From Odiellus spinosus (Eukaryota; Arthropoda; Arachnida; Opiliones; Phalangiidae), in NCBI GenBank assembly GCA_963920705.1, contig OY987240.1, forward strand, positions 8,411,676 to 8,475,675: 64,000 bases of DNA. Reading direction: 5' to 3'. The translations under genes were made by a program, and so were the position numbers. Below the pieces are notes generated by a model. It made no database searches. It saw nothing but the letters and a program-made list of their open reading frames with translations, and was not told where the DNA came from. This document shows positions 6,381-59,936 of this stretch, piece by piece; within the stretch, counting starts at the first letter, position 1, and each line of letters begins with the position of its first letter.

Positions 6381-6798
6381 CAGAGGTATATAATAACCCC
6401 CTTCGGGGGGAAGTATGAAAGACCCTATACTACCAATGCTAAAAATCACGAACAACAAGAGCCCGCTGCTGACTATCTAGGCCACTAGCTCGCGCTGGAC
6501 TTCTCAATGTCGCTACTCTAGTAAATGGTCTTTGTATAAACAAGACGGCTCGATTTGTGTTTAGAACTTCCGGTCTCGGGAGTCAGGCTGTCTGTTAAAA
6601 CGGAGTCGAAGGTTTACTTCGGCTCGCGAGTTCCGGAAGCGCGCGTAGGGAAAATTTAGTGAGGTTCAAAATGGTGTAACTATTTTTTGGGAGTAAAGCG
6701 GTGTGTCGATCCGCCGCGATTTACGCCGGGCACTCGTTGTTCGTCGATTTTGCCTACCTTTCATACTTCCCCCCGAAGGGGGTTATTATATACCTCTG
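6381..6798 (+). mobile_element. Family B MITE, copy 1
   Basis: Element of 418 bp with TIRs of about 41 bp starting CAGAGGTATATAATAACC, flanked by the 7-bp duplication atactat (6374-6380 and 6799-6805). Each TIR contains the hairpin CCCCCTTCGGGGG, a UUCG tetraloop when read as RNA. The unique interior has no credible ORF. The end architecture (CAG.. plus 7-bp TSD) matches family A, so the same class of transposase probably mobilised both. Confidence 0.93.
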
Positions 6799-15412: not shown

Positions 15413-15830
15413 CAGAGGTATATAATAACCCCCTTCGGGGGGAAGTATGAAAGCCCCAATACTACCAATGCTAAAAATCACGAACAACAAGAGCCCGCTG
15501 CTGACTATCTAGGCCACTAGCTCGCGCTGTACTTCACAATGTCGCTACTCTAGTAAATGGTCTTTGTATAAACAAGGCGGCTCGATTTGTGTTTAGAACT
15601 TCCTGTCTCGGGAGTCAGGCTGTCTGTTAAAATGGAGTCGAAGGTTGACTTCGGCTCGCGAGTTCCGGAAGCGCGCGTAGGGAAAATTTAGTGAGGTTCA
15701 AAATGGTGTAACTATTTTTTGGGAGTAAAGCGGTGTGTCGATCCGCCGCGATTTACGCCGGGCATTCGTTGTTCGTCGATTTTGCCTACCTTTCATACTT
15801 CCCCCCGAAGGGGGTTATTATATACCTCTG
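15413..15830 (+). mobile_element. Family B MITE, copy 2
   Basis: A 418-bp plus-orientation copy with TSD gtaatac (15406-15412 and 15831-15837). Both TIR hairpins are intact. It sits immediately upstream of a family H repeat. Confidence 0.93.
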
Positions 15831-19452: not shown

Positions 19453-20344
19453 TCTCTTGGTAATCGTCAATAATCTTCGAAGGGTAATAGCCAAAAATCT
19501 TGTGGTAATCGCCAAGAATCTTCGGTAATCCCCAATAATCTTCGGTAATTACCGGTAATCTTCAATAATTACTGGTAATATTCGGTAATTATCAGTAATC
19601 ACCCATAATCACCGATAATCCACGGTAATCACCAATAATCACCGATAATCACCGGTAATCACCGGCAATCACCGATAATCACCGGTAATCACCGGCAATC
19701 ACCGATAATCACCGATAATCACCGGTAATCACCGATAATCTTCGGTAATCACCGATAATCACCGGTAATCACCGATAATCTTCGGTAATCACCGATAATC
19801 TTCGGTAATCACCGATAATCTTATGGTAATCACCGATAATCTTATGGTAATCACCGATAATCTTATGGTAATCACCGATAATCTTATGGTAATCACCGAT
19901 AATCTTATGGTAATCACCGATAATCTTATGGTAATCACCGATAATCTTATGGTAATCACCGATAATCTTATGGTAATCACCGATAATCTTATGGTAATCA
20001 CCGATAATCTTATGGTAATCACCGATAATCTTATGGTAATCACCGATAATCTTATGGTAATCACCGATAATCTTATGGTAATCACCGATAATCTTATGGT
20101 AATCACCGATAATCTTATGGTAATCACCGATAATCTTATGGTAATCACCGATAATCTTATGGTAATCACCGATAATCTTATGGTAATCATCGATAATCTT
20201 ATGGTAATCACCGATAAATCTATGGTAATCACCGCTAATTTTATGGTAATCACCGATAATCTTATGGTAATCACCGATAATCTTATGGTAATCACCGATA
20301 AATCTATGGTAATCACCGCTAATTTTATGGTAATCAACGGTATA
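19453..20344. repeat. Minisatellite, 21-bp unit
   Basis: Positions 19453-19805 are degenerate 10-11-bp GGTAATCACC/GATAATC units; 19806-20340 resolve into a regular 21-bp unit TTATGGTAATCACCGATAATC, about 25 copies. Because 21 is divisible by three, both strands show long open frames (about 190 codons of MVITDNL or RLSVITI); these are artefacts. The array shows a gradient from degenerate to homogenised. Confidence 0.95.
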
Positions 20345-22426: not shown

Positions 22427-23258
22427 AAAATAGGAGAAATAATGCTAAATTATAGGAGAAATAATGCTAAAATTATAGGAGAAATAATGCTAAAATTATA
22501 GGAGAAATAATGCTAAAATTATAGGAGAAATAATGCTAAAATTATAGGAGAAATAATGCTAAAATAATAGGAGAAATAATGCTAAAATTATAGGAGAAAT
22601 AATGATAAAATTATAGGAGAAATAATGATAAAATTATAGGAGAAATAATGATAAAATTATAGGAGAAATAATGATAAAATTATAGGAGAAATAACGCTAA
22701 AATTATAGGAGAAATAACGCTAAAATTATAGGAGAAATAACGCTAAAATTATAGGAGAAATAATGCTAAAATTATAGGAGAAATAATGCTAAAATTATAG
22801 GAGAAATAATGCTACAATTATAGGAGAAATAACGCTAAAATTATAGGAGAAATAACGCTAAAATTATAGGAGAAATAACGCTAAAATTATAGGAGAAATA
22901 ACGCTAAAATTATAGGAGAAATAACGCTAAAATTATAGGAGAAATAATGCTAAAATTATAGGAGAAATAATGCTAAAATTATAGGAGAAATAATGCTAAA
23001 ATTATAGGAGAAATAATGCTAAAATTATAGGAGAAATAATGCTAAAATTATAGGAGAAATAATGCTAAAATTATAGGAGAAATAATGCTAAAATTATAGG
23101 AGAAATAATGCTAAAATTATAGGAGAAATAATGCTAAAATTATAGGAGAAATAATGCTAAAATTATAGGAGAAATAATGCTAAAATTATAGGAGAAATAA
23201 TGCTAAAATTATAGGAGAAATAATGCTTAAATTATAGGAGAAATAATGCTAAAATTTT
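22427..23258. repeat. Minisatellite, 23-bp unit
   Basis: About 36 copies of AGGAGAAATAATGCTAAAAT plus TAT. Variants occur in blocks: AATGAT near 22590-22680, AACGCT near 22690-22745 and 22830-22935, and AATGCT elsewhere, which suggests local amplification of segments. Degenerate edge units continue to about 23345 and end next to AGGTTAGGTTAG. Confidence 0.95.
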
Positions 23259-23589
23259 AGGAGATACACACCAAAATAGGAATTAAGGGAGATATACACT
23301 AACATTATAGGAAATTATAGGAGAAATACACCGAAATTGTGGGAAAATATAAGTAAGGTTAGGTTAGTTTAATTTTTATAGTAGTGTGCGAATGCTCGAA
23401 ATGTTTTGATCGCTCGATCAAACTTTTACTTTTTTTTTATGTGGCGCAAGATTTAGCATATCTAATGACAAGTAAAACGTGACATCCAGGGAAAAATTAT
23501 TTCTAACTTTATTCCCTTGAATAACGTTTCGCGTTTTTCATAAAAAACATTTTATAAACCTCGTTAATTAATAACCGAATGGTTTCTGT

Positions 23590-23877: not shown

Positions 23878-26137
23878 ATGAAGGCAATTGTGTCTTCATT
23901 AATTGTGGTGGTGGCCCTTGCGGTACAGAATTGCGACGCCTTTTGTCGTAAGTCAAATTTAAATTGTCAATTAAATTAAAACCGGGAAAGGATTAAGTGT
24001 GTGATCTTCAACGTCGTCCACTTATATTTGATACTGTCTTCCCCATTGGTCATATCTTGACGCCCCAAGACAAGATAGAACAATACCGACTAATCAAAGT
24101 GATTCGTAGATGAAGAGTCTACGAGTCCTCTATATTAGTGCCCGTGTAAGATTTAATTTCGATCCGATAATAGGTTTCTTTAAAAAAATGAGTCGAAAAT
24201 TCTAAATGATTTCGTTTATCAGAGATTTTTGACTCATAGTCCTGGTCGATTTGCCGGAAATGGGCCCTTGTCTCATAGCCGCGCCGCCATCTTTTTTTAG
24301 TAACAGGTTGCCAGACTATTTCTAATTTTATTTCCCACAAACCAAATTCAGGTTGTTAGTCCAACGCTTCCTATATGATAAAGTATAGGAGGCGTTGTTT
24401 AGTCTGTAGCTATTTTCACACTACAAAAAGATGGCGGACGATCACGTGACAAAAAGTTTTCCCCGCCAAAATTTTCGCGAGGTTCTCTAGACTTCCGGTT
24501 TTGGAAATCGACCAGGACTATTTAGATATCTAGAACACATCCACATTGCGTTATATCTTTCAGTAAGCACCTCGCGTTAACCACGTTCGAGGGAACTTGG
24601 CATGGGCTAGTAAAATCTTCTATACGAGGTTTAACATTTGAGTTTCAATCTCCCTCAAGTTTTCCCCCTCTGGAATAGAGGTATAACTATACTTTAACCT
24701 TATTATTGACCTTCGTCGATGTCAATAGGTGAAATTATAAGAGATCCCGAGGCGGCGACAGTCGTAGGAGAATGCCAAGAAAAGAATATGCCAGCCGAAG
24801 TGAGTTCATTTACGCGTGTATTTTTCGCTATTATATTATACGGAGTAATTAATTTTTAATTTTCAGTTCATGGATACGCTGATACAATGCGTCAACGGAC
24901 GTTTAGATCGCCAAGTGTCGTGGGGAGAGTTTTTCACCGCATTGTGTACTGACGAGACGCCAACGGAAGTAGGCATAAATATAGAAATATTAGATTTTTA
25001 ACTACCTGAAATTATAGTTTCGCTTAAATATTTTCTTTCAGATCAGAGCCTGCCTCGACGAACAAGCAAGTTACGTCCAGCAAAATGCAAGATTACTTAT
25101 TCAAAATCGTTCATTAGGCCTATGTTCCAGACAGACGACCATTAAGCTTAAGCCATCTACAGATTAACCCGTTTTAAAGCGTCCTGATTATCAAGCGCTA
25201 AAACGAGCTAATGCGTAGAGCCGGGGTTTATATAGTTTCCACAAGTGCTCCAAAAATCCTGTTAATTACGTTCGAATAATTTTGGGCCCGCCGAAGCTGC
25301 AAATATTTGCGCGGGAAACAAAAAACGTGACATTTCGCGCACTCGTGGAAACTAAGCATAAACAGACCAAGTTTAAAACTGACCCCGTGTTATAGGACTA
25401 TTTATTGTATTTCGTCTCTTAATTAATTTCCCTATTTAAAAATTATATTTCAGAGAGCAAAGTTAATTGAAGGATCAGATAAAGCGGACGTAAGTTGTTT
25501 TTGTCTCGATTCATTTTAAGAATTATAATTTGACTCGATGGCATTGCCGTTTCTTTTATGTTAGGAATGCATAGAAAGTCGACTAGGCAATGAGGAAGAA
25601 AGCGCGGATGCGGATCGAAGAAAACGCCGCTCTGCTTTCGCTGACGCATTGTCCCTCAAGAAACGAAGCGCTTACAGAAAACGACGCTCTCCATTCGCTG
25701 ACGCATTGTCCATCAAGAAACGAAGCGCTTACAGAAAACGCCGCGCTCCATTCGCTGACGCCTTGTCCATCAAGAAACGAAGCGCTTACAGAAAACGCCG
25801 CGCTCCATTCGCCGATGCCTTGTCCCTCAAGAAACGAAGCGTTTACAGAAAACGCCGCGCTCCATTCGCCGACGCCTTGTCCCTCAAGAAACGAAGCGCT
25901 TACAGAAAACGCCGCTCTCCATTCGCTGACGCCTTGTCCCTCAAAAAACGAAGTGTTTACAGAAAACGCCGCTCTCCATTCGCCGACGCCTTGTCCCTCA
26001 AGAAACGAAGCGCTTACAGAAAACGCCGCGCTCCATTCGCTGACGCCTTTTCCTTCGAGAAACGAAGCGTCAACAGAAAACGCCGATCTCCTTTCGCTCA
26101 AATCGTTTTTAGGAAACGCCGCTCGCCTTCCGCTTAG
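23878..26137 (+). CDS. Secreted multi-copy peptide precursor, gene 1
   Basis: Six exons: 23878-23947, 24729-24799, 24867-24968, 25042-25086, 25454-25489, 25565-26137 (298 aa). Residues 1-21 form a signal peptide (MKAIVSSLIVVVALAV then NCDA). Residues 22-110 hold six cysteines (23, 39, 55, 74, 85, 110) with spacings 15, 15, 18, 10 and 24. From about residue 128 come repeats of (S/A)PFADALSL-KKR-S(A/V)Y-RKRR: eight near-full units, one degraded unit and a stub. KKR and RKRR are typical furin/prohormone-convertase sites, so short peptides are probably released after secretion. No amidation glycine precedes the sites. Intron 4 uses a GC donor (25087). The start fits the signal peptide and conserved upstream context. 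AATAAA follows at 26264. The family is not recognised; a neuropeptide, antimicrobial, venom or salivary role all remain possible. Confidence 0.8.
24362..24397. mobile_element. 36-bp remnant of a family E element in intron 1 of gene 1
   Basis: Only the two TIR tips remain: CAACGCTTCCTATA and TATAGGAGGCGTTG joined by 8 bp, flanked by gttagtc (24355-24361) and tttagtc (24398-24404), a 7-bp TSD with one mismatch. It matches the tips of the full element at 58404-58706. It reads as an excision or internal-deletion remnant. Confidence 0.8.
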
Positions 26138-26263
26138 GCGAATTTCTTCCAAATAAGAATCGGTTAAGCACGCTTCGTAAGCGCGTACCACTTAACATTA
26201 ATTCTTTAATTTGTAAACAGCCAAGTTATAAAATTAATTTTGTATTTTTAAACGTTCAAATAT

Positions 26264-26269
26264 AATAAA
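26264..26269 (+). terminator. Poly(A) signal of gene 1
   Basis: AATAAA within CAAATATAATAAAATGCAAT, 127 bp past the stop codon. The same sequence follows genes 2 and 3. Confidence 0.65.
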
Positions 26270-26357
26270 ATGCAATTGATAAATAATGCTATTTATTTTG
26301 GATATATTAGCCTAAAATATTTCATTTAATATATATATATATATATAATATTTTTCT

Positions 26358-26621
26358 ATGGCGCCCGTCTTTGGCAAGCATTTCACAAAGTTGCGTCTTT
26401 TTTGCGCAGCCGATACCCGGAAAATAGGCTTAGCTGGATTCATGGAGATCCCGAATTGGTTCGCATTGATGGGTCAGAGATCAATAAGCAAAGGCCCGTC
26501 GTTAAGGCGAGATCTCCGTGAGACTTCCAATAACATTCGATTGGCCTTTTTTCCAAGTAAGTTTTTAAATGTATTTCTAGTTTAATATTTTTAATGTTTT
26601 ACAGGGCTATTTAAGCGATAA
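26358..26621 (+). CDS. Candidate two-exon small ORF
   Basis: Tentative. An ATG at 26358 opens 66 codons to a GTAAGT donor at 26557. A short intron ends TTTTACAG (26604), and the joined frame adds RLFKR before TAA (26619-26621), with an AATAAA a few bases further on. The putative product is about 71 aa, basic, with one cysteine and no signal peptide; it ends FFPRLFKR. It could also be the 3' end of a longer gene or chance. No paralogous copy follows genes 2-4, and no family is recognised. Confidence 0.25.
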
Positions 26622-26954
26622 GAAATCAATAATAAATATATTTTTGTTAGATTGCATTCTCATAGGAATCGTCTTATCCGCGAGTGTAGTGGGCCAATTT
26701 AATGATCAACGATGGCAGTTTGAGTAACTTTTAAAACCGTATTTAGTGACGTCAACATCGTTACTAAAGACTACGTTCACATTAGAATCTTTGAAGTTTC
26801 GAGATTTCAAATCAACTTTTAAAGCTAATTATTCCGTTTTTCTACAAAAAAATCTCTATATATTTAACCTTATTAAGGTTTTCAACCGGTATTAATAATA
26901 AAATAACTAAGGGAAGGGATGGGGAGGTGAGGGTGGAGTTGCGGACGGACGTAC
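26622..26954. other. 3' flank of gene 1 unit
   Basis: Includes CTTATTAAGGTTTTCAACC (about 26871-26889), which is also found near 30650 after gene 2, so the duplicated unit extends this far. Confidence 0.5.
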
Positions 26955-26961
26955 GTACAGT

Positions 26962-27380
26962 CAGAGGTATATAATAACCCCCTTCGGGGGGAAGTATGAA
27001 AGGTAGGCAAAATCGACGAACAACGAGTGCCCGGCGTAAATCCCGGCGGATCGACACACCGCTTTACTCCCAAAAAATAGTTACACCATTTTGAACCTCA
27101 CTAAATTTTCCCTACGCGCGCTTCCGGAACTCGCGAGCCGAAGTCAACCTTCGACTCCATTTTAACAGACAGCCTGACTCCCGAGACAGGAAGTTCTAAA
27201 CACAAATCGAGCCGTCTTGTTTATACAAAGACCATTTACTAGAGTAGCGACATTGAGAAGTCCAGCGCGAGCTAGTGGACTAGATAGTCAGCAGCGGGCT
27301 CTTGTTGTTCGTGATTTTTAGCATTGGTAGTATAGGGGCTTTCATACTTCCCCCCGAAGGGGATTTATTATATACCTCTG
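26962..27380 (-). mobile_element. Family B MITE, copy 3
   Basis: A 419-bp minus-orientation copy between genes 1 and 2, with TSD gtacagt (26955-26961 and 27381-27387). It lies just before the conserved 5' flank of gene 2 and is absent from the matching position of the other units. Confidence 0.93.
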
Positions 27381-27404
27381 GTACAGTACATTGCATTGTA
27401 TTAT

Positions 27405-27630
27405 ATTTTGATAAGAGTATCTAAATTAACCGTAATCTCGGTATATTTTATGTTAATTAACTAACTGGAGTCTAATTAGTTTCAATATATCACCTACAAA
27501 ACACGTCCGCCCCTTCAATAATAATCTAATCATACAAACTTCCCGTGCAAGGATGTGTATTTAAATTAAAACCGCCAAGGAAATTGGAAATTATTTATTC
27601 ATTGGTTAGGTCCAACTCGAAGAAGACATC
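27405..27630 (+). promoter_or_regulatory. Conserved 5' flank of gene 2
   Basis: Shares CCGTAATCTCGG, TTAATTAACTAACTGGAGTC, TTTCAATATATCACC and the AACTCGAAGAAGACATCATG block with the other units. Promoter role is inferred. Confidence 0.45.
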
Positions 27631-30314
27631 ATGAAGGCAATTTTGGTTTCATTGATTGTGGTGGTGTCCGTTGCCTTACGGAATTGCGAACCCTTTTGTA
27701 GTAAGCCAAATTTCAATTATCATTTACATTAAGTACTAAGGACTAAGATCAAAATAAGAAAAAGTAAAGTCTCGATCAGAATTCGAGCTTTTTAAGGTCT
27801 CCATCCAATATGTCTGAAGCCTTTTTTAAAGTTTCCCGTTGCGTATCTCGACGACCAAAATCCCACATAGAACCTGAGCTCTTAATGATATGCCCTCTTT
27901 GGGAAAAATGACTTCCCAAGACGGGGGTAATCAGTGGAAAGACCGAGAATTCCTCGTTAAGGTTCTCCCTTACCGAAAAATGTTAGTCAGAACTGAAAAG
28001 GTCCTCAAGAACCCTACAAAGGTCTTGGCGAAGTCTTAAAGACATAATGAAAGACTTCCCCAAGATCTCTTAAGACAACATAAGACACCCGAAAGACTTC
28101 CAAGATCTCTTAAGATTAACTTTTTTTGGTTAGGACTATCACTCTGACCGTTAATTATTTGCGAAGCTGGCGCCATCTACCAAAATGGGTAATCCCCCAC
28201 AAATACGTGTCTGCGATAAACATATCTAAAGAGCAGCGTTTTAAGACTTTTGGATATAACACTGAATCCCAAAGTTTCGCGCTAGGCGATCCAGCATCGT
28301 TCTTTGCACTGTAAAACCGGGCTTCGATAAATTTCCTCCGTGACCAGCTTGTCACACGAACGAAAGCTTTCTCGCGTAGTTACTGTTATTTAAACAGTAA
28401 ATTATTCCTTTAATAAAATTAGAGTCTACGAGTTTTCGATCTTAGTGCACGTGTAAGATTTCCATCCGTAAATAGTTTTTTTTTTGACATGGCTATAGAA
28501 GAGCAGTCGATGTAAGTTCCCGCTTGGCAATTCCATTAACTCATTTTGGTTGTCCTGACATCCGGAAATAGGAGGGAAAATAGCAAAGCGTGAACTTCTT
28601 TTTGCTAACCAAGGGGAAGCTCAGTGAAACAGGCAGACGAAATCCTAGGTCTTTAATTTACCCATTAATTCGCGCGTCATATCTTTCTGTGGCGTTGTTC
28701 GGAGTCTGGGAATTTGCGCGGAATAATAACATCACATACACTAGATGTACCACTGATTATCAATCTAGCTGGACATTTTTCCATTACGATAATCGTTGAG
28801 TTATTAACGAGCTTCAATAAATTGTGTATAGATGATATTAGAGCTGATCCCGAGGCGGCGCTGGTCGTGGGAGAATGTGAAGTAAAGCATATGCCAGCCG
28901 AAGTTAGTTCGAGTAGCTTTTTTGGCTACATACCGGAGTGGTGTTGTATTCGTACTGATTGGAGTAAATTGCATCTAATTTTCAGTTTATGGATACGCTG
29001 ATGCAATGCGTCAGCGGACGTTTAGGCCGCCAATTGTCGTGGGGCGAGTTTTTCACCGAACTGTGTACCGGTGATTTGAGACGAGTTGTAAATATCGAAA
29101 TATTAGATTTTAACCGCGTGGGCCCTGAAATTATAGTTTTGACACAATTTCAATTGTTTTTCAGGTCAATAACTGTGTCAAGGAACAAAGTATTGAACAG
29201 GCAAGATTATTCAATTTAAAATTACCAAGTTGAGACCTTTATCGCGTTATGATCGATGAAATCGATACTGATTAACACGAGTTCACGCGTAAAGTATCCG
29301 GCTTTGTTTCCACAGTTCGCGATAAACGTAAGGAGTTTGGGGAATCCTGGGAGTGGTTCAAATTGAATGGATGTATACCTATGACGTTCTAGGAATCACG
29401 TGACTAAATGACGCAATAGTCAACCGCGAGATCAAGTTTAGGCGTGGCTAAATCTTTATACTACAAAGGCTATTCCTTCACATTATGGCCTATTTTCATT
29501 ACGCCTTTTCGTTATATCTAGTGGAAACTAAGCTTAAGCAGACCTTTTAAAACAGAAACCGTGTTATAAGACCATTACGAATTTTTCACGAACTCCACAT
29601 GGTAATTGAGGCATAAAATTTAGAATATGGCATTTTATTAGTATGATAAAACTAAAAATATAATCCAGATGCATTCGAAAAAATGGTGACAGCTGCTCAG
29701 AAATAAGAGTATTTCGTCTCTAAAATTATTTGTCCATATTTAAATTTGATTTTTAGCAAGCCGAAATGACGGAAAGAAAATTTATGGACGCAATTATTAA
29801 AGCAGACGTAAGTTCGTGTTAAGGCGACTTATTTTAAGGATCATAATTTGATTCGATGACACTGCCATCATTTGGATGTTAGGAATGCATAGCTACTCGA
29901 CTACACAATGGGGAAGTAAGCGCGGATGCCGACCTAAGAAAACGGCGCTCTCCATTCGCTGACGCCTTGTCTGTCAACAAACGAAGCGTTTACAGAAAAC
30001 GGCGCTCTCCATTCGCTGACGCATTGTCCCTCAAGAAACGAAGCGTTTACAGAAAACGGCGCTCTCCATTCGCTGACGCCTTGTCCCTCAAGAAACGAAG
30101 CGTTTACAGAAAACGGCGCTCTCCATTCGCCGACGCCTTGTCCCTCAACAAACGAAGCGTTTACAGAAAACGGCGCTCTCCATTCGCTGACGCCTTGTCC
30201 CTCAAGATACGAAGCTTTTACAGAAAACGGCGCTCTCCATTCGCTGACGCCTTGTCACTCAAGAAACGAAGTGCGGACGCTAAAGCGAATATTTTCGAGA
30301 CGCGAATCGGCTAG
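27631..30314 (+). CDS. Secreted multi-copy peptide precursor, gene 2
   Basis: Six exons: 27631-27700, 28832-28902, 28986-29087, 29165-29200, 29757-29807, 29883-30314 (253 aa). The signal peptide (MKAILVSLIVVVSVALRN) and all six cysteines are kept. The residue pair before the last exon-1 PFC is EP rather than DA, so the cleavage site may shift. Exon 5 is 15 bp longer than in genes 1, 3 and 4 (17 codons). The repeat exon has six SPFADALS(L/V) units. Two KKR sites are altered to NKR and one to KIR, so those junctions may process less well. Intron 4 has a GC donor after CAG (29201). The C-terminus ends NIFETRIG. Intron 1 (1131 bp) contains a fragment of repeat family G. Confidence 0.8.
28130..28215 (+). 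repeat. Repeat family G fragment in intron 1 of gene 2
   Basis: Matches GAAGCTGGCGCCATCTACC and flanking sequence of the fuller copies at 31.6 and 42.1 kb. Confidence 0.5.
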
Positions 30315-30419
30315 GCACGCTTGGTAAGCGCGTACCACTTAACGTTAATTCTTGAATTTGTAAACAAAACAGCCAAGTTATAAAAATAAATGTTTTGTAT
30401 ATTTTAAACGGTCAAATAT

Positions 30420-30425
30420 AATAAA
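30420..30425 (+). terminator. Poly(A) signal of gene 2
   Basis: AATAAA in the same context as gene 1 (ATATAATAAAATGCAATTG), about 105 bp after the stop. Confidence 0.6.
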
Positions 30426-30674
30426 ATGCAATTGATAAATAAAGCCATTTATTTTGATTGTTCGGTGGGGTTAAATGCGAGCTTAAAAAGGAAGACTTTT
30501 TGCCCTGAAAAGTAACTTTTTCTTCATAATTAAAGGTAACTTTTTTGGCCAAAAAAGTCTATATTGAAAACGAGGCTTTAAACTTTTTACAATTTTGTCC
30601 TTTCTAATAACGTTTAAAAAAGGTTACGATTAACTATTATTTTTAACCGTATTAAGGTTTTCAATCCGTATCAA

Positions 30675-30990
30675 CAAGAATCCATTCAGGTTCCATAAGA
30701 ATATGGGAGCGTAGCTCTAGCCTCTGGTACCATCCTCCCAAACTTTGTAACAAAAGTTCGTCCCCAATTTTCGCAACATTTGTACGCTTAGATCTTTTTT
30801 CGGTCGGCTCCATTTTTATTACCCAAAATATTATGTCAAGGTCGTTAGTGGCGCGGGTTAATAATAGATGGCAGGAGCGATTTACTTGAAAAATCGATTC
30901 GAAGCGGACGAACTTTCGCTACAAAGTTTGGGAGGATGGTTATTGAATCGCGGCCCTCCCATATTCTTATGGAACCTGAATGGATTCTTG
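30675..30990. mobile_element. Family D MITE
   Basis: A 316-bp element between genes 2 and 3. TIRs of about 35 bp begin CAAGAATCCATTCAGGTTCC and the 7-bp TSD is gtatcaa (30668-30674 and 30991-30997), both perfect. A second inner inverted pair (ACCATCCTCCCAAACTTTG and its complement) makes it strongly self-complementary. Non-coding, single copy here. Confidence 0.88.
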
Positions 30991-30999
30991 GTATCAATT

Positions 31000-31263
31000 A
31001 ATTATAAAATAATAAGACCTAATCGAAATTATCCGTAATCTGGGTCGAACAGTTTGTTTTTCATTTGTTCGGCTAATTAACTTATACGAGTCTCAATTAG
31101 TTTCAATATATCACCTATAACACACTTCCGCCCCTTCAATAATAATCTAATCGTTTCAACATCCCGTACAAGAGTGTATTTTTAATATTAAAACAGAATT
31201 CATTTATTTTTAATCCTTGTTAAGGTTTCGATCGAGTCAAACGCCTAACTCGAAGAAGACATC
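31000..31263 (+). promoter_or_regulatory. Conserved 5' flank of gene 3
   Basis: Carries the shared blocks CTAATCGAAATTATC, GTTCGGCTAATTAACT, TTTCAATATATCACC and AACTCGAAGAAGACATCATG. Promoter role is inferred. Confidence 0.45.
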
Positions 31264-34200
31264 ATGAAGACAATTTTGGTTTCATTGATTGTGGTGGTGG
31301 CTATTGTGGTACGCAATTGCGACGCCTTTTGTAGTAAGTCAAAGTTAAATTATCAATTAAATTGTAAACGGGGAAAGATTAAGATCAAAATTAGGAATTG
31401 CGAACTTATTATGGTCCCCATCCGATATGTCTGAAGCCCATAATACTCAATGTCGTCCGATTATATTCCCCATTGGTCATATCTCGACGGCCCAAAGACC
31501 ACATAGGACCAGAGATCTTACAACGATGAGTTATAGAGATACGTCCCTTACGGGGATAATTGGTGGAAAGACCCAAAATTCCGGGTTAAGGTTCTATCGC
31601 TCTGACTGTTAAATATTCGAAGCTGTCAGCGCCATCTACCGAAATGAGTAATCGGCCACAAATACGGGTTTTTAAAGGTTTAAGAGAGATTTCAAATTTG
31701 TGTTTATTTTATCATTTTTTTCAAATATGCGCAATTATTTAGATCATTTTGCGTATTTTTGTAAACCAAATACGCACGAGTCACACGCGTGACCTCCAGT
31801 CTCGAGGTAGGTGTGGTGGAAAGAGGGGAGGTAGTGTCAAAGCCACGTATTATCTTCGACGACTCATAGATGGCGCTTCAATCTACCCGAGGTTTGTTGA
31901 CAACAGAGGGTTTGGGAAGATGCGTCTCTACAGCGCAGCGATGTAAGATCTCTGCTAGTAATGCTCCAAAACGTGTTATGTCAACTCCCAGTAGAGTTTT
32001 TCAAGGCTTAAGAGATTTCAAATTCGCGTTTTTTTTTAATACGCGCGGAACGCATTACGATATAATTGTTGACATATTAACGAGCTTCAATGAATTGTCT
32101 ATAGGTGAAATCAGAGCTGATCCCGAGGCTGCACTGGTCGTTGGAGAATGCCAATCAAAGCATATGCCAGCCGAAGTTAGTTGGAGTAGTTTTTTAGGCT
32201 ACACATCGAAATGTTATTATATCGTACGGATTGGAGTAATTTTAAATCTAATTTTCAGTTCATGGATACGCTGATACAATGCGTCAGCGAACGATTAGGC
32301 CGCCAAGTGTCGTGGGGTGAGTTTTTCGCCGCATTGTGTACCGGGGTTTCGAGAGAAGAAGTAAATATCCAAATATTAGATTTTAACCGAGTGGGCCCTT
32401 AAATTATAGTTTCTTTCAGATCGATAGCTGTCTCGTGGAACTACATATTGAAAGCGAGGAACAGGCAAGATTAATTATTCAAATTAAAACTACTAAGTTT
32501 AAAGAAGCTTCTACAGCTCGAGCTGATTCAATGAAATCGATACTGATTATAACTCTCTAAAGCCGTGTTGATACTAAAGACTTTGAAACCGTTTTAGAAA
32601 GGTCAAAATCATAAAATTTTGAGGCTGTAAAGATCATTTCTCAAAATATATAATTATTTTCTTGAAAAACGGTTTGAAAAATCTCTAGTAAGAACCAGAA
32701 GCCGATGAAACCCTCCTTTGAAGTCTATTACTCCCGGGTCTTGTCTACCCCTCTCTGTATGGGTTATTCTGAAAAAGCGCGATTCGTACGCCTCCTAACG
32801 GTAGATGTTTTCAGAGCGAGAGCTCGTCGAGCGAATATCTCTAGCAGCCTTGGAGTTCGTCCAAAAAACGTCGTCGTTTGTGGAGAGAGAGAATTTCCAA
32901 TTTTCCGTAGACAGGGGGGTATGAAGTAGGACCCCTTATAACTCGTAAAATTGTGAATTTTACCCATACAGAGAGGAGCGCTATATGGAACATTAGAGTA
33001 GTATACTTCAAAGGAGGGTTTCATCGGCTTCTGTAAGAACGTATCTCAAGACGAGTTCGTGACTTCGTGTGTAAAGTACACGGTTTCGTTTCCACTACCA
33101 CGTGCCAATTGCCGCGATTTTCACCTTGACAATAATCATAAGGAGTAGAAGGTTCGGGGAATCCAAGGAGCGGTCAAAATGGGCATGTTAGTTCCGTTTC
33201 CGGCACTCGCTAAATGCCTGTATACGTATTACATCACGTGACTAAATGACGCTATCGCATCTTCGGGGATAATAGTCAACGGCACAATCAAGAACATTAG
33301 AGGTCGGGGGTTTGGACAAGATACAAAAGGCTACTCTGTTTATTGTCTATGTTTTCATTATGGGAAAACTATTGATGGTCACGCTTCACGGGACTTAGTA
33401 CAGTGGAAGGCTGGCGAAGCGCTTAAAGCGAAGTATGCCGATCAATGGTGAAAACTAAGCTTAAACGGACCATTTAAACCGATAATATCATTTAAAAAGA
33501 GATTGCCAAGGATTTTTTCAAAAAAGACCAAGTAGCTTATTCGGAAAGACCCTAAAAAAAGCAATTAAAAAAATAACCACAGTAGAGCCTAGAGTTGATT
33601 CTCGCGCGTTCTGGCACAAGTGATAAGATCGCTTTCGCGTGGTCTTTTTCATAAAAGTACTTAATTCTGATCAAGTTAACAACCTTTCGTACGAAAATTA
33701 TAGTTAATTACGTTCCAGACATAAACATTTTCATTTTGAAGTTATTTTCCTCTAACGTCAGCCCAAAGGTATATCTTTTGAATATGGCGTTTTGATAGTA
33801 TCATAAAATATAATCCAGAGTCATTAGAATTTACTTTAAGTATATTTCATCTCTAAAATTCTTTGTCCATATTTAAACTTGATTATAGGAAGCAGAGATA
33901 ACGGAAGCATCTAATAAAGCAGACGTAAGTTCGTATTGTGGCGACTTATTTTAAGATTCGTAATTTGATTCGATGACATTGCCATCATTTGGATGTTAGG
34001 AATGCATAGCTACTCGACTACACAATGGAGAAGAAAGTACGGATGCCGATCGAAGAAAACGGCGCTCTCCATTCGCTGACGCCTTGTCCCTCAAGAAACG
34101 AAGCGTTTACAGAAAACGGCGCTCTCCATTCGCTGACGCATTGTCCCTCAAGAAACGAAGCGTTTACAGAAAACGGCGCTCTCCATTCGCTCCCGCCTTG

Positions 34201-34395
34201 TCCCTCAAGAAACGAAGCGTTTACAGAAAACGCCGCTCTCCATTCGCTGACGCATGGTCCCTCAAGAAACGAAGCGTTTACAGAAAACGGCGCTCTCCAT
34301 TCGCTAACGCCTTGTCCCTCAAGAAACGAAGCGTTTACAGAAAACGCCGCTCTCCATTCGCTGACGCCTTGTCCTTCAAGAAACGAAGCGTTTAG
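31264..34395 (+). CDS. Secreted multi-copy peptide precursor, gene 3
   Basis: Six exons: 31264-31333, 32105-32175, 32259-32360, 32420-32464, 33889-33924, 34000-34395 (239 aa). The signal peptide MKTILVSLIVVVAIVV and six cysteines are retained. The last exon gives six repeats: SPFADALSL, SPFADALSL, SPFAPALSL, SPFADAWSL, SPFANALSL and SPFADALSF. The frame stops at TAG (34393-34395), where every other unit has TAC (Tyr of SVY). The frame beyond would end one repeat later at TAA, so the loss is small. Intron 4 has a GC donor (32465) and is the longest (1424 bp), because it holds a family A MITE. Intron 1 carries a family G repeat. Confidence 0.8.
31600..31965 (+). repeat. Dispersed repeat family G, copy 2, in intron 1 of gene 3
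   Basis: Same landmarks as 42.06-42.47 kb: CAGCGCCATCTACCG, CCAAATACGCACG, CGCGTGACCTCCAGTCTCGA and a TGGCGCT.CAATC segment. Short ORFs inside are not conserved. Confidence 0.65.
32696..33033 (+). mobile_element. Family A MITE, copy 8, in intron 4 of gene 3
   Basis: A 338-bp plus-orientation copy with perfect TSD taagaac (32689-32695 and 33034-33040). It is absent from intron 4 of the three paralogues, so it inserted after duplication. Confidence 0.93.
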
Positions 34396-34493
34396 AGAAA
34401 ACGGCGCTCTCCATTCGCTGGCGCATAAAGAAAAGAAACGTCTTTAGAGTAGTTTGGAAACTAAATTTATTTTTTTTTTAAACGGTGAAATAT

Positions 34494-34499
34494 AATAAA
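34494..34499 (+). terminator. Poly(A) signal of gene 3
   Basis: AATAAA within GAAATATAATAAAATGCAAT, about 100 bp past the stop. Confidence 0.6.
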
Positions 34500-34749
34500 A
34501 TGCAATTGATAAATAATACTATTTAATTTGGTTTATTGTAGTTAAATTCGTGGATGGAGGGATGGTTAAACTTTTTTTGCTTAAAAAGTTTTAAATGGTC
34601 TAGTGGGATGCGGCTTCGGAGAAGTAGCCTAGGCCCTAGGTTAAGAAATATCTATGAGAGAAATTTTTTCATTTTCATGGTAGAGTGTAGATGGCCGAAT
34701 AAACTTGAAACAAATTTACGTGGCGTTTAGAATTATCGTGATATCTGGA

Positions 34750-34785
<36 letters not shown>

Positions 34786-35637
34786 TGATTGCTATAAATG
34801 ACACAAAGTTTAAATAGATTAAGGGATTAGTTGCAATTCCAAATTACACCTGGGTAGAATTTAAAAACCATTAAGGTAATTAACAGTAGTTCAAACTAAA
34901 AACTAGTTGGGAAACCAAAATGTCCCTCCCCGAGTAGCACGTGGTCTAATCTAACAAAGTTTATTTCATTCATAAATTGGACTGAGGAATTTATTCAGTG
35001 ATTTATAATCCTGTACGATATTATCAAAAGTCTATTACTTTATTCCGTAAAAGTAAACATTGCTTAATAATATCAGAAAAGGTTGTTTTACTTCGTAACC
35101 CTTCACTTAAAACTAGAAATAAAACTCATCACCCCTATCTGGCTCGAGCGATTTGGAATCTTCCTCGATATTTTGAGTTGCGAAAGAAGGAGGGAATTTC
35201 GGTGGGGCGCGCTTGGCTATATTGTCTTGGTTCGTAAGTCGACCGCAAAATAGTACCAACTACCTTTCTAATATATAATAAGTTTGGCGATTCTGGAGCC
35301 AACTTTATCTGCTTATTTTTTTTTTCTTTTTTTTTTGCTAGGCCTAATTTTTAAAATCATTTATTAAAAGCAAAATAAATGGTAAGCCTAAAACGGTAAT
35401 TAGTTTATTTGTCGAATGAAATTGAATACGTTTAAACGCAATGTCCTTCCTACGACTGACGACACTCTCGAAGCTATCGTCACTCGAATATCGTGAGCAA
35501 CCTAGTTCAAACCGGACAAAGCAAACTTTATTCTTTCAACGAAACAATCATTTGTTTCTTGAACGTCGACTTTCCATGCAAAAATTATTGTCTGTCTTTT
35601 AAATTTAAATCATGTTGCAATATGTTTTCATTTTTAC
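34500..35637. other. Intergenic spacer, genes 3-4
   Basis: Contains an A-run of about 30 near 34753. No exon is supported; the 79-codon ORF at 34998 has no context. Confidence 0.5.
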
Positions 35638-35644
35638 GTTATCC

Positions 35645-36066
35645 CAGAGGTATATAATAACCCCCCTCGGGGGGGAAGTATGAAAAGTAGGCAAAATCGA
35701 CGAACAACGAGTGCCCGGCGTAAATCGCGGCGAATCGACACACCGCTTTACTCCCAAAAAATAGTTACACCATTTTGAACCTCACTAAATTTTCCTTACG
35801 CGCACTTCCGGAACTCGCGAGCTTAAGTCAACCTTCGACTCCATTTTAACAGACATCCTGACTGCTGAGACATGAAGTTCTAAACACAAATCGAGCCGTC
35901 TTGTTTATACAAAGACCATTTACTAGAGTATAGCGACATTGAGAAGTCCAGCGCGAGCTAGTGGCCTAGATAGTCAGCAGCGGGCTCTTGTTGTTCGTGA
36001 TTTTTAGCATTGGTAGTATAGCGGTTTTCATACTTCCCCCCGAAGGGGGTTTATTATATACCTCTG
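35645..36066 (-). mobile_element. Family B MITE, copy 4
   Basis: A 422-bp minus-orientation copy upstream of gene 4, with TSD gttatcc (35638-35644 and 36067-36073). The left TIR hairpin reads CCCCCCTCGGGGGG, so the UUCG loop is altered at that end. Confidence 0.92.
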
Positions 36067-36214
36067 GTTATCCGTATTGTCGTGCCAACCACGTATTAGA
36101 GGCTTTGCTTCAGCGGTTGCCCGTAAAGATATTATTGATTAATTTCAAACTTGAGAAATAAAATTATCGAAGATAGATCTATTAAGGTGACGTGATATTT
36201 TGAATCGCGACCTT

Positions 36215-36454
36215 GCGTATAAAAATAATCAGAATTAATCGAAATGATCTATAATCTCGGTAGAGCAGTTTCCTTTATAGGGTCGACAAATTAATTAACT
36301 AATTGGAGATCCAATGAGTTGGTATATATTACTTGTACAAAAACGTATCCGCTCACTCATTAATAATAATATTATAATCTAATCGTTCCATTTTAGAAAC
36401 TATTTAATCTTTGGTAAGGTTTCGATCGAGCCGAACGCCTAACTCGAAGAAGAC
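36215..36454 (+). promoter_or_regulatory. Conserved 5' flank of gene 4
   Basis: Carries AATTAATCGAAAT, ATAATCTCGGTA, TAATTAACTAATTGGAG and AACTCGAAGAAGACATG. The last block lacks the CAT duplicate found before the ATG in genes 1-3. Promoter role is inferred. Confidence 0.45.
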
Positions 36455-38329
36455 ATGAAGGCAGTTGTGGCTTCACTGATTGTGGTGGTGGCCGTTACGG
36501 TACGCAATTGCGACGCCTTTTGTCGTAAGTCAAACTTAAATTTTCAATTAAATTAAAATCGGGACAGAACTAAGAGCAAGATGAACGGAAAGTCTTGTTA
36601 TAGAATGCTAGCTTATTAAGGTCACCATCTCATATGTTTGAAGCCTTCTCAAAGCTTCTTTCCCGTTGCGTGAGATCTTCAATGCAGTTCACTTATATTT
36701 GATAATGTCTTCCCCATTGGTCATATCTTGATGGCCACAAAGACACGAAAGAACAGTACCGACGACGCTATTCACCTAATCATAGTGGCTCGTAGAGAAA
36801 AGTCAACGAGTCCCTCGATATTACTGCCCGTGTATGATTGAATTTCAATCCGTGGCAGAGTTGCTCTCGGTCATGCCCATGGATAATAGATAGGAGTTAA
36901 GTTCTCGCTGCGCAATTCCTTTCCTAATTCCGGTCTACAGCGAAGCGGGACCTGCTGCCTTCGTGCGCAGTTCATCTATGACGTATATATGACGCGGCAT
37001 TGCTCGCTCGGGTTCTGGGGTTGTTGTCGCAACCTTAATCACTTCCTATACGAGGTTTATCATTGAATAAATTTCCCTTAAGTTTTCCTATCACGGCGAA
37101 TCCTAGCTCTGGGACAGAGATATAACTAAAACCTTCGATAATGTACTAACGAACTTCAACGATGTTAATATAGATGATATTAGAAGAGATCCCGAGGCGG
37201 CGGTGGTCGTGGGAGAATGCACGCGTGAGAATCTGCCGGCCGAAGTTAGTTCATTCACGATATGAGAGTGATCATAAGGAATTATATTCTAGGATAGGAA
37301 TAATCAATATTTCATTTTCAGTTCACGGATACATTGATACAATGCGTCAACGGACGTTCGGGTCGCCAAGTGTCGTGGAGAGAGGTTTTAATCGCGTGGT
37401 GTAGTCTAGATTCGACAGAAATGAGCGAAACGTTAGATTTTTGCTTCGAATCGCTAAGCGGTTACTCCGAGAAAAATGTAAGATTACTTATTCGTCTTTA
37501 TAGTCCTTTTATTTCTTCGATTAAGTTTTATACGTAATAGCCCGTTTTTAAGCGTCACGCAAGTTTATCGACACCGATTATCAAGCGCTAAAAAGATCAA
37601 AAGCCGAATGCACACTGACCCGCAATTCACACCCATAGGTTTACGTCGGCACGCGAGCGTGAAACTCGCTAAAAACGGGTCTTCGCGCATCCGGCTTAAC
37701 ACGTGCATAGATTTTACGCCCGTAAAGAAAAGCTTTTAAACTGACGCCGTGTCATAGGTCCTTTTATAGTATTTCCTCTATTAATTTATGTATACTTATT
37801 TATAATCTAATTTCAGGAAGCAGAGTTGTTTGAAGGATCTGATAAAGCAGACGTAAGTTCGTATTATCGCGACTTATTTTAAGAATCGTAATTTGACTCG
37901 ACGACATTGCCATCATTTGGATGTTAGGAATGCCTAGATACTCGACTACACAAAGGGGAAGAAAGCGAGGATGCGGCTCGAAGAAAACGCCGCTCTCCAT
38001 TCGCTGATGCCTTGTCCCTCAAAAAACGAAGCGTTTACAGAAAACGCCGCTCTCCATTCGCTGACGCATTGTCCCTCAAGAAACGAAGCGTTTACAGAAA
38101 ACGCCGCTCTCCATTCGCTGACGCATGGTCCCTCAAGAAACGACACCTTCTTAGAACACAGCGCTTTTCTTTCGCTGACGCACTGAACCTCAAGAAACGA
38201 AGCGTTTATAGAAAGCGGCGCTCTCCCTTGGCTGGCGCATTGTCCCTCAAGAAACGAAACGCGGAAGCCGCTAATTACAACAGAAGAAAGCCAAAACGAC
38301 GAACTCCATTTGGTCGAGTCGACGGCTAG
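36455..38329 (+). CDS. Secreted multi-copy peptide precursor, gene 4 (intron-loss paralogue)
   Basis: Five exons: 36455-36524, 37174-37244, 37322-37477, 37817-37852, 37928-38329 (244 aa). The signal peptide is MKAVVASLIVVVAVTV. Exons 3 and 4 of the paralogues are fused here. The former intron is shortened and reads in frame as about MSETLDF, so the fourth-to-fifth cysteine spacing is 13 instead of 10. The following donor is GT (37478), not GC. The repeat exon is more diverged: two SPFADALSL, SPFADAWSL, FSFADALNL and SPLAGALSL, with one linker changed to HLLRTQR. It ends in a basic tail (RRKPKRR then TPFGRVDG). It is the most divergent family member, yet all cysteines and the frame are kept. 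Confidence 0.77.
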
Positions 38330-44581: not shown

Positions 44582-45003
44582 CAGAGGTATATAATAACAC
44601 CCTTCGGGGGGGGGGGATGTATGAAAGGTAGGCAAAATCGACGAACAACAAGTGCCCGGCGTAAATCGCGGCGGATCGGCACACCGCTTTACTCCCAAAA
44701 AATAGTTACACCATTTTGAACCTGACTAAATTTTCCCTACGCGCACTTCCGGAACTCGCGAGCTGAAGTCAACCTTCGACTCCATTTTAACAGACAGCCT
44801 GACTCCTGAGACAGGAAGTTCTAAACACGAATCGAGCCGTCTTGTTTATACAAAGACCATTTACTAGAGTAGCGACATTGAGAAGTCCAGCGCGAGCTAG
44901 TGGCCTAGATAGTCAGCAGCGGGCTCTCGTTGTTCGTGATTTTTAGCATTGGTAGTATAGGGGCTTTCATACTTCCCCCGAAGGGGGTTATTATATACCT
45001 CTG
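44582..45003 (-). mobile_element. Family B MITE, copy 5 (no matching TSD)
   Basis: A 422-bp minus-orientation copy. The left TIR hairpin is disrupted (ACACCCTTCGGGG with extra G residues). The flanks gcgatgt and agaaacg do not match, unlike other B copies. This suggests an old insertion or a rearranged end. Confidence 0.88.
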
Positions 45004-46518: not shown

Positions 46519-47715
46519 ATGACATGGCTCTCCCTTTATTATTCCTACTTCATGATTGGACGTCTGGCTCTCCCTTTATTATCCTACTCCATGATTTTAC
46601 CTTTGGCTCTCCCTTTATTATCCCTACTCCATTATTTTACGTCCGTTTCTCCCTTTATTATCCTAATTCCATGATTTTACCTTTGGCTCTCCGTTTATTA
46701 TCCCTACTCCATTATTTTACCTCTGGCTCTCCCTTTATTATCCTAATTCCATGATTTTACCTTTGGCTCTCCGTTTATTATCCCTATTCCATTATTTTAC
46801 GTCTGCCTCTCCCTTTATTATCCCTACTCCATGATTTGACGTCTGCCTCTCCCTTTATTATCCCTACTCCATGATTTGACGTCTGCCTCTCCCTTTATTA
46901 TCCCTACTCCATGATTTGACGTCTGCCTCTCCCTTTATTATCCCTACTCCATGATTTGACGTCTGCCTCTCCCTTTATTATCCCTACTCCATGATTTGAC
47001 GTCTGCCTCTCCCTTTATTATCCCTACTCCATGATTTGACGTCTGCCTCTCCCTTTATTATCCCTACTCCATGATTTGACGTCTGCCTCTCCCTTTATTA
47101 TCCCTACTCCATGATTTGACGTCTGGCTCTCCCTTTATTATCCTACTCCATGATTTTACCTTTGGCTCTCCCTTTATTTTCCCTACTCCATAATTTTACG
47201 TCTGTTTCTCCCTTTATTATCCCTACTCCATTATTTTACCTCTGGCTCTCCCTTTATTATCCTAATTCCATGATTTTACCTTTGGCTCTCCGTTTATTAT
47301 CCCTATTCCATTATTTTACGTCTGCCTCTCCCTTTATTATTCCTACTCCATGATTGGACGTCTGGCTCTCCCTTTATTATCCCTACTCCATCATTTGACG
47401 TCTGCCTCTCCCTTTATTATCCCTACTCCATGATTTGACGTCTGCCTCTCCCTTTATTATCCCTACTCCATGATTTGGCGTCTGGCTCTCCCTTTATTAT
47501 CCCAACTCCATGATTTGGCGTCTGGCTCTCCCTTTATTATCCCTACTCCATCATTTGGCGTCGGGCTCTCCCTTTATTATCCCTACTCCATGATTTGACG
47601 TTTGGCTCTCCCTTTATTATCCCTATTCCATGATTTTATCTCCGGCTCTCTTTATTATCCCTACTCCAATTTGTCTCTGACTCCTCTTTATTATCCCTAC
47701 TCCATGGCTCTCCCT
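46519..47715. repeat. Minisatellite, 40-bp unit
   Basis: About 30 copies built on CTCTCCCTTTATTATCCCTA plus CTCCATGATTTGACGTCTGC. The block 46800-47115 is almost identical units; both flanks are more variable (TTTTACCTTTGG or GGACGTCTGG variants). Variant units 46560-46800 recur near 47110-47300, as if a segment had been duplicated. Short ORFs are periodic artefacts. Confidence 0.95.
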
Positions 47716-55277: not shown

Positions 55278-56915
55278 ATCTGGTGTCCATTTGCGCAATT
55301 TTTCCATTTGCGCAATTTTTCCATTTGCGCAATTTTTCCATTTGCGCAATTTTTCCATTTGCGCAATTTTTCCATTTGCGCAATTTTTCCATTTGCGCAA
55401 TTTTTCCATTTGCGCAATTTTTCCATTTGCGCGGTTTTCCATTTGCGCAATTTTTCCATTTGCGCGGTTTTCCATTTGCGCGGTTTTCCATTTGCGCAAT
55501 TTTTCCATTTGCGCAATTTTTCCATTTGCGCAATTTTTCCATTTGCGCAATTTTTCCATTTGCGCAATTTTTCCATTTGCGCAATTTTTCCATTTGCGCG
55601 GTTTTCCATTTGCGCAATTTTTCCATTTGCGCAATTTTTCCATTTGCGCAATTTTTCCATTTGCGCAATTTTTCCATTTGCGCAATTTTTCCATTTGCGC
55701 AATTTTTCCATTTGCGCAATTTTTCCATTTGCGCAATTTTTCCATTTGCGCAATTTTTCCATTTGCGCAATTTTTCCATTTGCGAAATTTTTCCATTTGC
55801 GCAATTTTTCCATTTGCGCAATTTTTCCATTTGCGCAATTTTTCCATTTGCGCAATTTTTCCATTTGCGCAATTTTTCCATTTGCGCAATTTTTCCATTT
55901 GCGCAATTTTTCCATTTGCGCAATTTTTCCATTTGCGCAATTTTTCCATTTGCGCAATTTTTCCATTTGCGCAATTTTTCCATTTGCGCAATTTTTCCAT
56001 TTGCGCAATTTTTCCATTTGCGCAATTTTTCCATTTGCGCAATTTTTCGATTTGCGCAATTTTTCCATTTGCGAAATTTTTCCATTTGCGAAATTTTTCC
56101 ATTTGCGCAATTTTTCCATTTGCGCAATTTTTCCATTTGCGCAATTTTTCCATTTGCGCAATTTTTCCATTTGCGCGGTTTTCCATTTGCGCAATTTTTC
56201 CATTTGCGCAATTTTTCCATTTGCGCAATTTTTCCATTTGCGCAATTTTTCCATTTGCGCAATTTTTCCATTTGCGCAATTTTTCCATTTGCGCGGTTTT
56301 CCATTTGCGCAATTTTTCCATTTGCGCAATTTTTCCATTTGCGCAATTTTTCCATTTGCGCAATTTTTCCATTTGCGCAATTTTTCCATTTGCGCAATTT
56401 TTCCATTTGCGCAATTTTTCCATTTGCGCAATTTTTCCATTTGCGCAATTTTTCCATTTGCGCAATTTTTCCATTTGCGAAATTTTTCCATTTGCGCAAT
56501 TTTTCCATTTGCGCAATTTTTCCATTTGCGCAATTTTTCCATTTGCGCAATTTTTCCATTTGCGCAATTTTTCCATTTGCGCAATTTTTCCATTTGCGCA
56601 ATTTTTCCATTTGCGCAATTTTTCCATTTGCGCAATTTTTCCATTTGCGCAATTTTTCCATTTGCGCGGATTTCTATTTGCGCGGTTTTCTATTTGCGCG
56701 GATTTCCATTCGAGCTGTCCACAAGAGGGACAGGCTAGTTCGAGTGATTAACTAACCTAACCTCGCCTAACGTAACCTAACATAAACTGCAAATGAAAAA
56801 AGCGCAAATGGAAACTGCGGAAATGGAAGCCTGCGGAAATGAAAAACTGCGCAAAAGGAAATGCGCTTGTGGGAACTGCGCAAAAGGGAACTGCGCAATT
56901 TAAACCTTACCTTTA
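55278..56915. repeat. Expanded fold-back minisatellite, 17-bp unit, TTAGG core
   Basis: The left arm (55278-56700) is about 83 copies of CCATTTGCGCAATTTTT, with scattered 16-bp CGCGGTTTT variants and a few GCGAAA variants. The core (about 56705-56785) is GGCTAGTTCGAGTGATTAAC followed by TAACCTAACC. The right arm (56785-56915) is the inverted, degenerate theme GCGCAAATGGAAACTG. The core matches 12.6 kb. Because 17 is not a multiple of three, up to 495-codon ORFs appear in six frames; none is a gene. Confidence 0.93.
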
Positions 56916-57286: not shown

Positions 57287-57704
57287 CAGAGGTATATAAT
57301 AACCCCCTTCGGGGGGAAGTATGAAAGCCCCTATACTACCATTGCTAAAAATCACGAACAACAAGAGCCCGCTGCTGACTATCTAGGCCACTAGCTCGCG
57401 CTGGACTTCTCAATGTCGCTACTCTAGTAAATGGTCTTTGTATAAACAAGACGGCTCGATTTGCGTTTAGAACTTCCTGTCTCGGGAGTCAGGCTGTCTG
57501 TTAAAATGGAGTCGAAGGTTGACTTCGGCTCGCGAGTTCCGGAAGCGCGCGTAGGGAAAATTTAGTGAGGTTCAAAATGGCGTAACTATTTTTTGGGAGT
57601 AAAGCGGTGTGTCGATCCGCCGCGATTTACGCCGGGCACTCGTTGTTCGTCGATTTTGCCTACCTTTCATACTTCCCCCCGAAGTGGGTTATTATATACC
57701 TCTG
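57287..57704 (+). mobile_element. Family B MITE, copy 6
   Basis: A 418-bp plus-orientation copy with TSD atttaaa (57280-57286 and 57705-57711). The right hairpin has one change (GAAGTGGG). Confidence 0.93.
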
Positions 57705-59518: not shown

Positions 59519-59936
59519 CAGAGGTATATAATAACCCCCTTCGGGGGGAAGTATGAAAGGTAGGCAAAATCGACGAACAACGAGTGCCCGGCGTAAATCG
59601 CGGCGGATCGACACACCGCTTTACTCCCAAAAAATAGTTACACCATTTTGAACCTCACTAAATTTTCCCTACGCGCGCTTCCGGAACTCGCGAGCTTAAG
59701 TCAACCTTCGACTCCATTTTAACAGACATCCTGACTGCTGAGACAGGAAGTTCTAAACACAAATCGAGCCGTCTTGTTTATACAAAGACCATTTACTAGA
59801 GTAGCGACATTGAGAAGTCCAGCGCGAGCTAGTGGCCTAGATAGTCAGCAGCGGGCTCTCGTTGTTCGTGATTTTTAGCATTGGTAGTATAGGGGCTTTC
59901 ATACTTCCCCCCGAAGGGGGTTATTATATACCTCTG
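59519..59936 (-). mobile_element. Family B MITE, copy 7
   Basis: A 418-bp minus-orientation copy. The TSD is attgtac (left) versus attctac (right), one mismatch. Both hairpins are intact. Confidence 0.92.

Follow-up and report, generated by a model that had tools for sequence, protein, structure and literature searches.

Four tandemly duplicated genes of Odiellus spinosus appear to encode secreted multi-copy peptide precursors

The stretch of DNA analysed here (henceforth the window) comprises 64,000 nucleotides of the Odiellus spinosus genome (assembly GCA_963920705.1, contig OY987240.1, positions 8,411,676-8,475,675, forward strand), and four tandem genes, all on the plus strand, were found between its positions 23878 and 38329. 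The features of their sequences suggest that these genes are tandem duplicates which probably encode secreted multi-copy peptide precursors, processed at basic sites. In each predicted precursor a hydrophobic N-terminus and a six-cysteine domain precede an array of 19-residue units encoded by the last exon. The initial annotation of the locus had proposed four same-strand genes with matching exon lengths and phases, signal-like N-termini, six cysteines and 5-9 units of 19 residues, and all these points are borne out by the gene models given below, which were obtained by exon and frame reconstruction.

23878-26137, +, gene 1
23878..23947, +, gene 1 exon 1, signal-peptide exon, 70 nt
24729..24799, +, gene 1 exon 2, 71 nt
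24867..24968, +, gene 1 exon 3, 102 nt
25042..25086, +, gene 1 exon 4, 45 nt, GC donor
25454..25489, +, gene 1 exon 5, 36 nt
25565..26137, +, gene 1 repeat exon, 573 nt, 9 units of 57 nt starting at 25619
27631-30314, +, gene 2
27631..27700, +, gene 2 exon 1, 70 nt
28832..28902, +, gene 2 exon 2, 71 nt
28986..29087, +, gene 2 exon 3, 102 nt
29165..29200, +, gene 2 exon 4, 36 nt, GC donor
29757..29807, +, gene 2 exon 5, 51 nt
29883..30314, +, gene 2 repeat exon, 432 nt, 6 units starting at 29937
31264-34395, +, gene 3
31264..31333, +, gene 3 exon 1, 70 nt
32105..32175, +, gene 3 exon 2, 71 nt
32259..32360, +, gene 3 exon 3, 102 nt
32420..32464, +, gene 3 exon 4, 45 nt, GC donor
33889..33924, +, gene 3 exon 5, 36 nt
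34000..34395, +, gene 3 repeat exon, 396 nt, 6 units starting at 34054
36455-38329, +, gene 4
36455..36524, +, gene 4 exon 1, 70 nt
37174..37244, +, gene 4 exon 2, 71 nt
37322..37477, +, gene 4 fused exon 3+4, 156 nt, without intron 3, GT donor
37817..37852, +, gene 4 equivalent of exon 5, 36 nt
37928..38329, +, gene 4 repeat exon, 402 nt, 5 units starting at 37982, the last three degenerate

The intron phases are common to all four genes, being 1 for the first intron and 0 thereafter. Acceptors are AG and donors GT, with the exception of the GC donor of exon 4 in genes 1-3, the corresponding donor of gene 4 being GT. The two short exons, put at about 45 and about 36 nucleotides in the initial annotation, vary by insertions or deletions in multiples of three only: exon 4 has 45, 36 and 45 nucleotides in genes 1-3 and a 54-nucleotide equivalent in gene 4, and exon 5 has 36, 51, 36 and 36 nucleotides in genes 1-4, while introns 2 and 3 show other lengths. 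The last intron measures 75 nucleotides in each of the four genes. Intron 3 is absent from gene 4, a feature that the initial annotation does not mention. The third and fourth exons of this gene are joined with retention of the frame and of the fifth cysteine, and about 20 nucleotides at the join can be aligned with the 5' end of intron 3 of genes 1-3. This intron seems to have been lost from gene 4 by an internal deletion within what is now 37322-37477, leaving a short remnant in the coding frame. The flanks of the four copies are also partly alignable on both the promoter side and the 3' side, including a AAGAAGACAT stretch that precedes the start codon.

The earlier view that these are protein-coding genes is upheld by their frames, which are open in all four copies. 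Neutral evolution was simulated at the observed divergence, starting from a 126-codon consensus of the N-terminal coding regions of genes 1-4, with each lineage changed by 13% and with insertions and deletions excluded. In none of 20000 runs did all four frames stay open, and a single frame did so in 11.5% of lineages. The arrays are plain tandem repeats, and hence their in-frame state does not constitute independent evidence.

The predicted precursors of genes 1-4 are respectively 298, 253, 239 and 244 residues long, and their N-terminal parts are 61-69% identical to that of gene 1 across 147-150 residues. All four begin with a hydrophobic segment (best 12-residue mean 2.95-3.59), and six cysteines are conserved downstream of the putative signal peptide, a seventh conserved one lying at the border of this peptide. 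The cysteine spacing is 15-15-18-10-24 in genes 1 and 3, 15-15-18-10-26 in gene 2, and 15-15-18-13-24 in gene 4, which has three extra residues before the fifth cysteine. The cysteine domain is acidic (charges of -13, -9, -16 and -14 in genes 1-4) and the tail strongly basic (+54, +33, +38 and +34).

The last exons contain 9, 6, 6 and 5 units of 57 nucleotides in genes 1-4, 26 in total, and Tandem Repeats Finder scores these arrays at 379-771. The unit consensus is RKRR-SPFADALSL-K-KR-SVY, its core SPFADALSL being exact in 11 of the 26 units as counted by eye. Four units, namely unit 9 of gene 1 and units 3-5 of gene 4, were classed as degenerate, and the frame of gene 3 stops within the spacer of its sixth unit, with another unit-like stretch lying downstream. 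Motifs typical of cleavage sites are nearly universal: R-X-X-R is present in 26/26 units, R-X-[KR]-R in 25/26, and [KR]R in 25/26. Taking as key positions the P4 and P1 arginines of the first site and the P1 arginine of the second, and deriving expectations from codon mutability, none of the 41 distinct amino-acid changes among the 26 units falls on them, against 5.7 expected (P=0.002, changes being counted once per gene; 0/37, P 0.004, when each is counted once overall). Spacer changes are in excess (14/41 versus 7.0 expected, P 0.006). Just four of the 19 unit positions are invariant, and three of these are the key arginines. By this test, the signature of constraint among the units is limited to the cutting sites and does not extend to the peptide letters. 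The ratio of the proportions of nonsynonymous and synonymous differences (pN/pS) among units, obtained by counting, is 0.53 within genes and 0.47 between genes, and concerted evolution of units within genes was not shown in 22 units (4.3 versus 4.7 differences per 57 nucleotides, permutation P 0.075). These basic sites and spared arginines, taken together with the hydrophobic N-termini, agree with the initial proposal of secreted multi-peptide precursors as far as sequence features can indicate it.

Selection was assessed through the ratio of nonsynonymous to synonymous rates (omega, or dN/dS), with counting estimates pooled across the six gene pairs, bootstrap ranges, and six regions tested without correction. 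It is uneven along the precursor, exons 2-3 being constrained and exons 4-5 not. Exons 2-3 give an omega of 0.44 by counting (bootstrap 0.26-0.72) and 0.58 by codon likelihood (2 delta lnL 3.4 versus omega 1), and exons 4-5 give 1.07 by counting (0.50-2.08). The signal exon (0.98; 0.33-5.78) and the start of exon 6 (0.79; 0.25-3.74) have wide ranges. Among genes 1-3, exon 4 has diverged more than intron 3 in all three pairs (Fisher P 0.0074, 0.00027 and 0.015). The last intron is less diverged and, as noted above, of the same length in all four genes, implying that the introns of this locus have no single common rate. Exons 4-5 are thus best described as either unconstrained or diversifying.

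The search for relatives covered protein collections that are mainly prokaryotic and viral and hold few animal proteins, so that absence from them carries little weight for animals. Within this scope, the protein search of the cysteine domain suggested in the initial annotation returned no homologue: residues 1-128 yielded 98 candidates and the aligned N-terminal parts of the four precursors yielded 1482, none of either set at E<=10. The full precursor had none at E<=1 among the best 7997 candidates scored. Sixteen pattern stretches were obtained from IMG/VR and none was confirmed. In Pfam, no family reached its own cut-off with the four full precursors or with their N-terminal parts, the best match of the latter being MukF_M (E 0.011, one of the four members), and the best PDB matches (E 2.2 and 0.78) are not meaningful. 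Strings from the peptides and from the cysteine domain did not occur in the literature searched. Ten of the 127 open reading frames of at least 70 amino acids in the window gave no Pfam match at E 0.1, and Rfam gave 0 matches across the window. Insect odorant-binding proteins, which also have six cysteines, are characterized by C2-x3-C3 and C5-x8-C6; they were ruled out by the spacing of 15-15-18-10/13-24/26 seen here, and the present precursors also gave no Pfam match. The layout of a multi-copy precursor is already known, and the family itself is without match in the collections searched.

The precursor features suggest the following pathway. The signal peptide would be removed, the cysteine domain would fold with three disulfides, and a cut at the first RKRR site would release this domain as a separate acidic product. 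Furin- or PC-type convertases would then cut both sites of every unit, so that one precursor could supply a nonapeptide such as SPFADALSL in many copies, together with discarded tripeptide spacers, and repetition of the unit would raise the dose of a single peptide per transcript. The freed peptides would most likely act outside the cell. The weakest step concerns their target: the juxtaposition of fast-changing exons 4-5 with a conserved core would be slightly more expected of an exocrine product (venom, saliva or accessory gland) or of a defence product than of a conserved hormone acting internally, and we place low weight on this preference, which follows from the uneven selection and from the missing amidation signal, no glycine before a basic site having been found when the 26 units were read by eye. 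A fuller version, which we consider possible and rather doubtful, would see here a new animal peptide family that combines a six-cysteine carrier-like domain, a fast-diversifying loop encoded by exons 4-5 and a dose-amplifying nonapeptide array in a secretion, exocrine or defensive, that targets other organisms, with the cysteine module and the nonapeptide acting jointly as two products of one precursor. If expressed, the genes would constitute a so far unannotated peptide family, as predicted from sequence, that is open to immediate testing: the letters of the predicted products are sufficiently specific to be sought by mass spectrometry, and the four diverged adjacent copies would allow a direct test of differing evolutionary rates in the peptide array and the cysteine domain.

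Several observations weigh against secreted, processed precursors under selection. The signal peptide is putative, its cleavage having been judged by eye from the hydrophobic N-terminus. One KR site has been lost in gene 2, and sites are also affected in the degenerate units of genes 1 and 4; when the four degenerate units are left out, the key-arginine test weakens to 0/17 (P=0.08). The nonapeptide core shows no special conservation, with 21 of the 41 changes against 18.8 expected. The initial annotation had claimed selection on the cysteine domain and had named a neutral dN/dS there, jointly with a lack of spliced transcripts in any tissue, as a refuting result; the claim stands for exons 2-3, whereas the whole mature domain is near neutral on average, with an omega of 0.70 by counting (bootstrap 0.49-1.03) and 0.97 by codon likelihood (2 delta lnL 0.02), and yet, as described above, no neutral run kept the four frames. 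The excess in exons 4-5 by codon likelihood (GY; omega 2.73, 2 delta lnL 5.3) comes from one of six uncorrected regions and from a gappy stretch. Furthermore, the proposal that exons 4-5 evolve faster than neutral sequence failed against a second control, intron 4: divergence of exon 4 is not above that of either sampled end of this intron (P 0.12-0.42), and neither is that of exon 5 (P 0.19-0.95). As these exons outpace intron 3 and not the ends of intron 4, relaxed constraint accounts for them as well as positive selection does.

One alternative is that the copies are decaying duplicates, or a repeat without a product. The early end of the gene 3 frame relative to its array, the degenerate units of gene 4 and the average omega near 1 of the cysteine domain by codon likelihood are in keeping with it, but four frames that stay open over 5-6 exons, the outcome of the neutral simulation and the constraint on exons 2-3 make it very improbable. 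It is also quite unlikely that the tail escapes processing and, as a secreted repeat of polycationic character, binds to a polyanion, to matrix or to membrane, its arginines being retained for their charge. The charge of +33 to +54 and the low complexity of the repeat would suit such a role; charge alone, however, leaves the invariance of the P4, P1 and KR P1 arginines unexplained, while lysines elsewhere in the units do change. A further reading, which we deem unlikely, takes the genes for neuropeptide or peptide-hormone precursors, in which many copies of one nonapeptide would be cut out by PC2/amontillado-type enzymes to act on a receptor. Multi-copy neuropeptide precursors carry short repeated peptides between dibasic sites, and the many near-identical short copies seen here, with two basic sites per unit, resemble them. 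In contrast to such precursors, the present ones lack an amidation glycine, have a large cysteine domain and are encoded by four diverged tandem genes; this divergence and the omega near 1 in exons 4-5 would be unusual for a hormone, and conservation of the core is not above expectation.

The units could also be antimicrobial peptides amplified in one precursor, as in apidaecin and Baramicin A, in which case the acidic cysteine domain would be a propiece; we regard this identification as immune effectors as somewhat unlikely. The apidaecins of bees are cationic and proline-rich; their precursors likewise amplify many copies of one short peptide, but the trimmed peptides of the present family are neither cationic nor proline-rich, and a cysteine domain is present here. 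An acidic domain (-9 to -16) ahead of a cationic tail would fit an immune effector, cutting at RXRR alone would give a 15-mer of charge +2, and duplication and uneven selection are usual in immune genes. The fully cut 9-mer, on the other hand, has a charge of -1 and a modest helical moment (0.31). In the 600 bp upstream of each gene, a strict kB-type site was found 0 times, in a test of low power with fewer than one expected in all, and in the same low-power test a loose Relish pattern occurred at background (17 found versus about 18 expected). No sequence relation to these insect precursors emerged from Pfam, in which no family reached its cut-off, the comparison having been made through Pfam families and not with the Baramicin sequence itself. 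As described in the parts of the source consulted, Baramicin A of Drosophila is a single secreted precursor from which cleavage at RXRR furin sites releases a tandem series of related peptides, a build which speaks for the immune reading; this tandem-peptide layout is there called rare but not unique, apidaecin being named as the first case (PMC8423362). Among the systems described in the literature consulted, Baramicin A appears closest in build to the proposed multi-copy precursors, which differ from it, as far as that account goes, in their near-identical 9-mers (charge -1 when trimmed), in the six-cysteine domain in front and in the second basic site of each unit. Similarly, the portions consulted of a study of venom peptide genes in the ant Tetramorium bicarinatum describe locally duplicated tandem genes that have preserved their exon structure, with short exons and one GC-AG intron, reminiscent of the genes reported here; unlike these, the ant genes have 2-3 exons, with no multi-copy unit exon in those portions (PMC10800049). 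The likeness considered here is that of gene structure. Neither resemblance makes the four genes members of those families.

Repeated elements were also noted in the window. A 28-base piece of an abundant short element was not found in exact form in the viral and genome contigs searched, and TTAGG-type telomere repeats were not seen in the window beyond isolated 10-13-mers. An element of about 420 bp with CAGAGGTATATAA ends is present in seven copies. Exact target duplications of 7 bp flank five of them, another has a duplication with 6/7 matching positions, and the remaining copy has none. Another element, of about 340 bp with CAGAAGCCGATGAAACCC ends, occurs in about 13 copies, at 32696-33033 and 12 other places, with one copy lying within intron 4 of gene 3 and 7-bp duplications at two of the copies inspected. 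A satellite with a 23-bp unit, repeated 36 times, stops some 600 bp upstream of gene 1, and further tandem arrays are found on both sides of the four genes.

6381-6798, 15413-15830, 26962-27380, 35645-36066, 44582-45003, 57287-57704 and 59519-59936: copies of the ~420-bp CAGAGGTATATAA element
22430-23264: 23-bp satellite
19606-20336, 46525-47706, 55286-56699, 60561-61716 and 62792-64000: other tandem arrays

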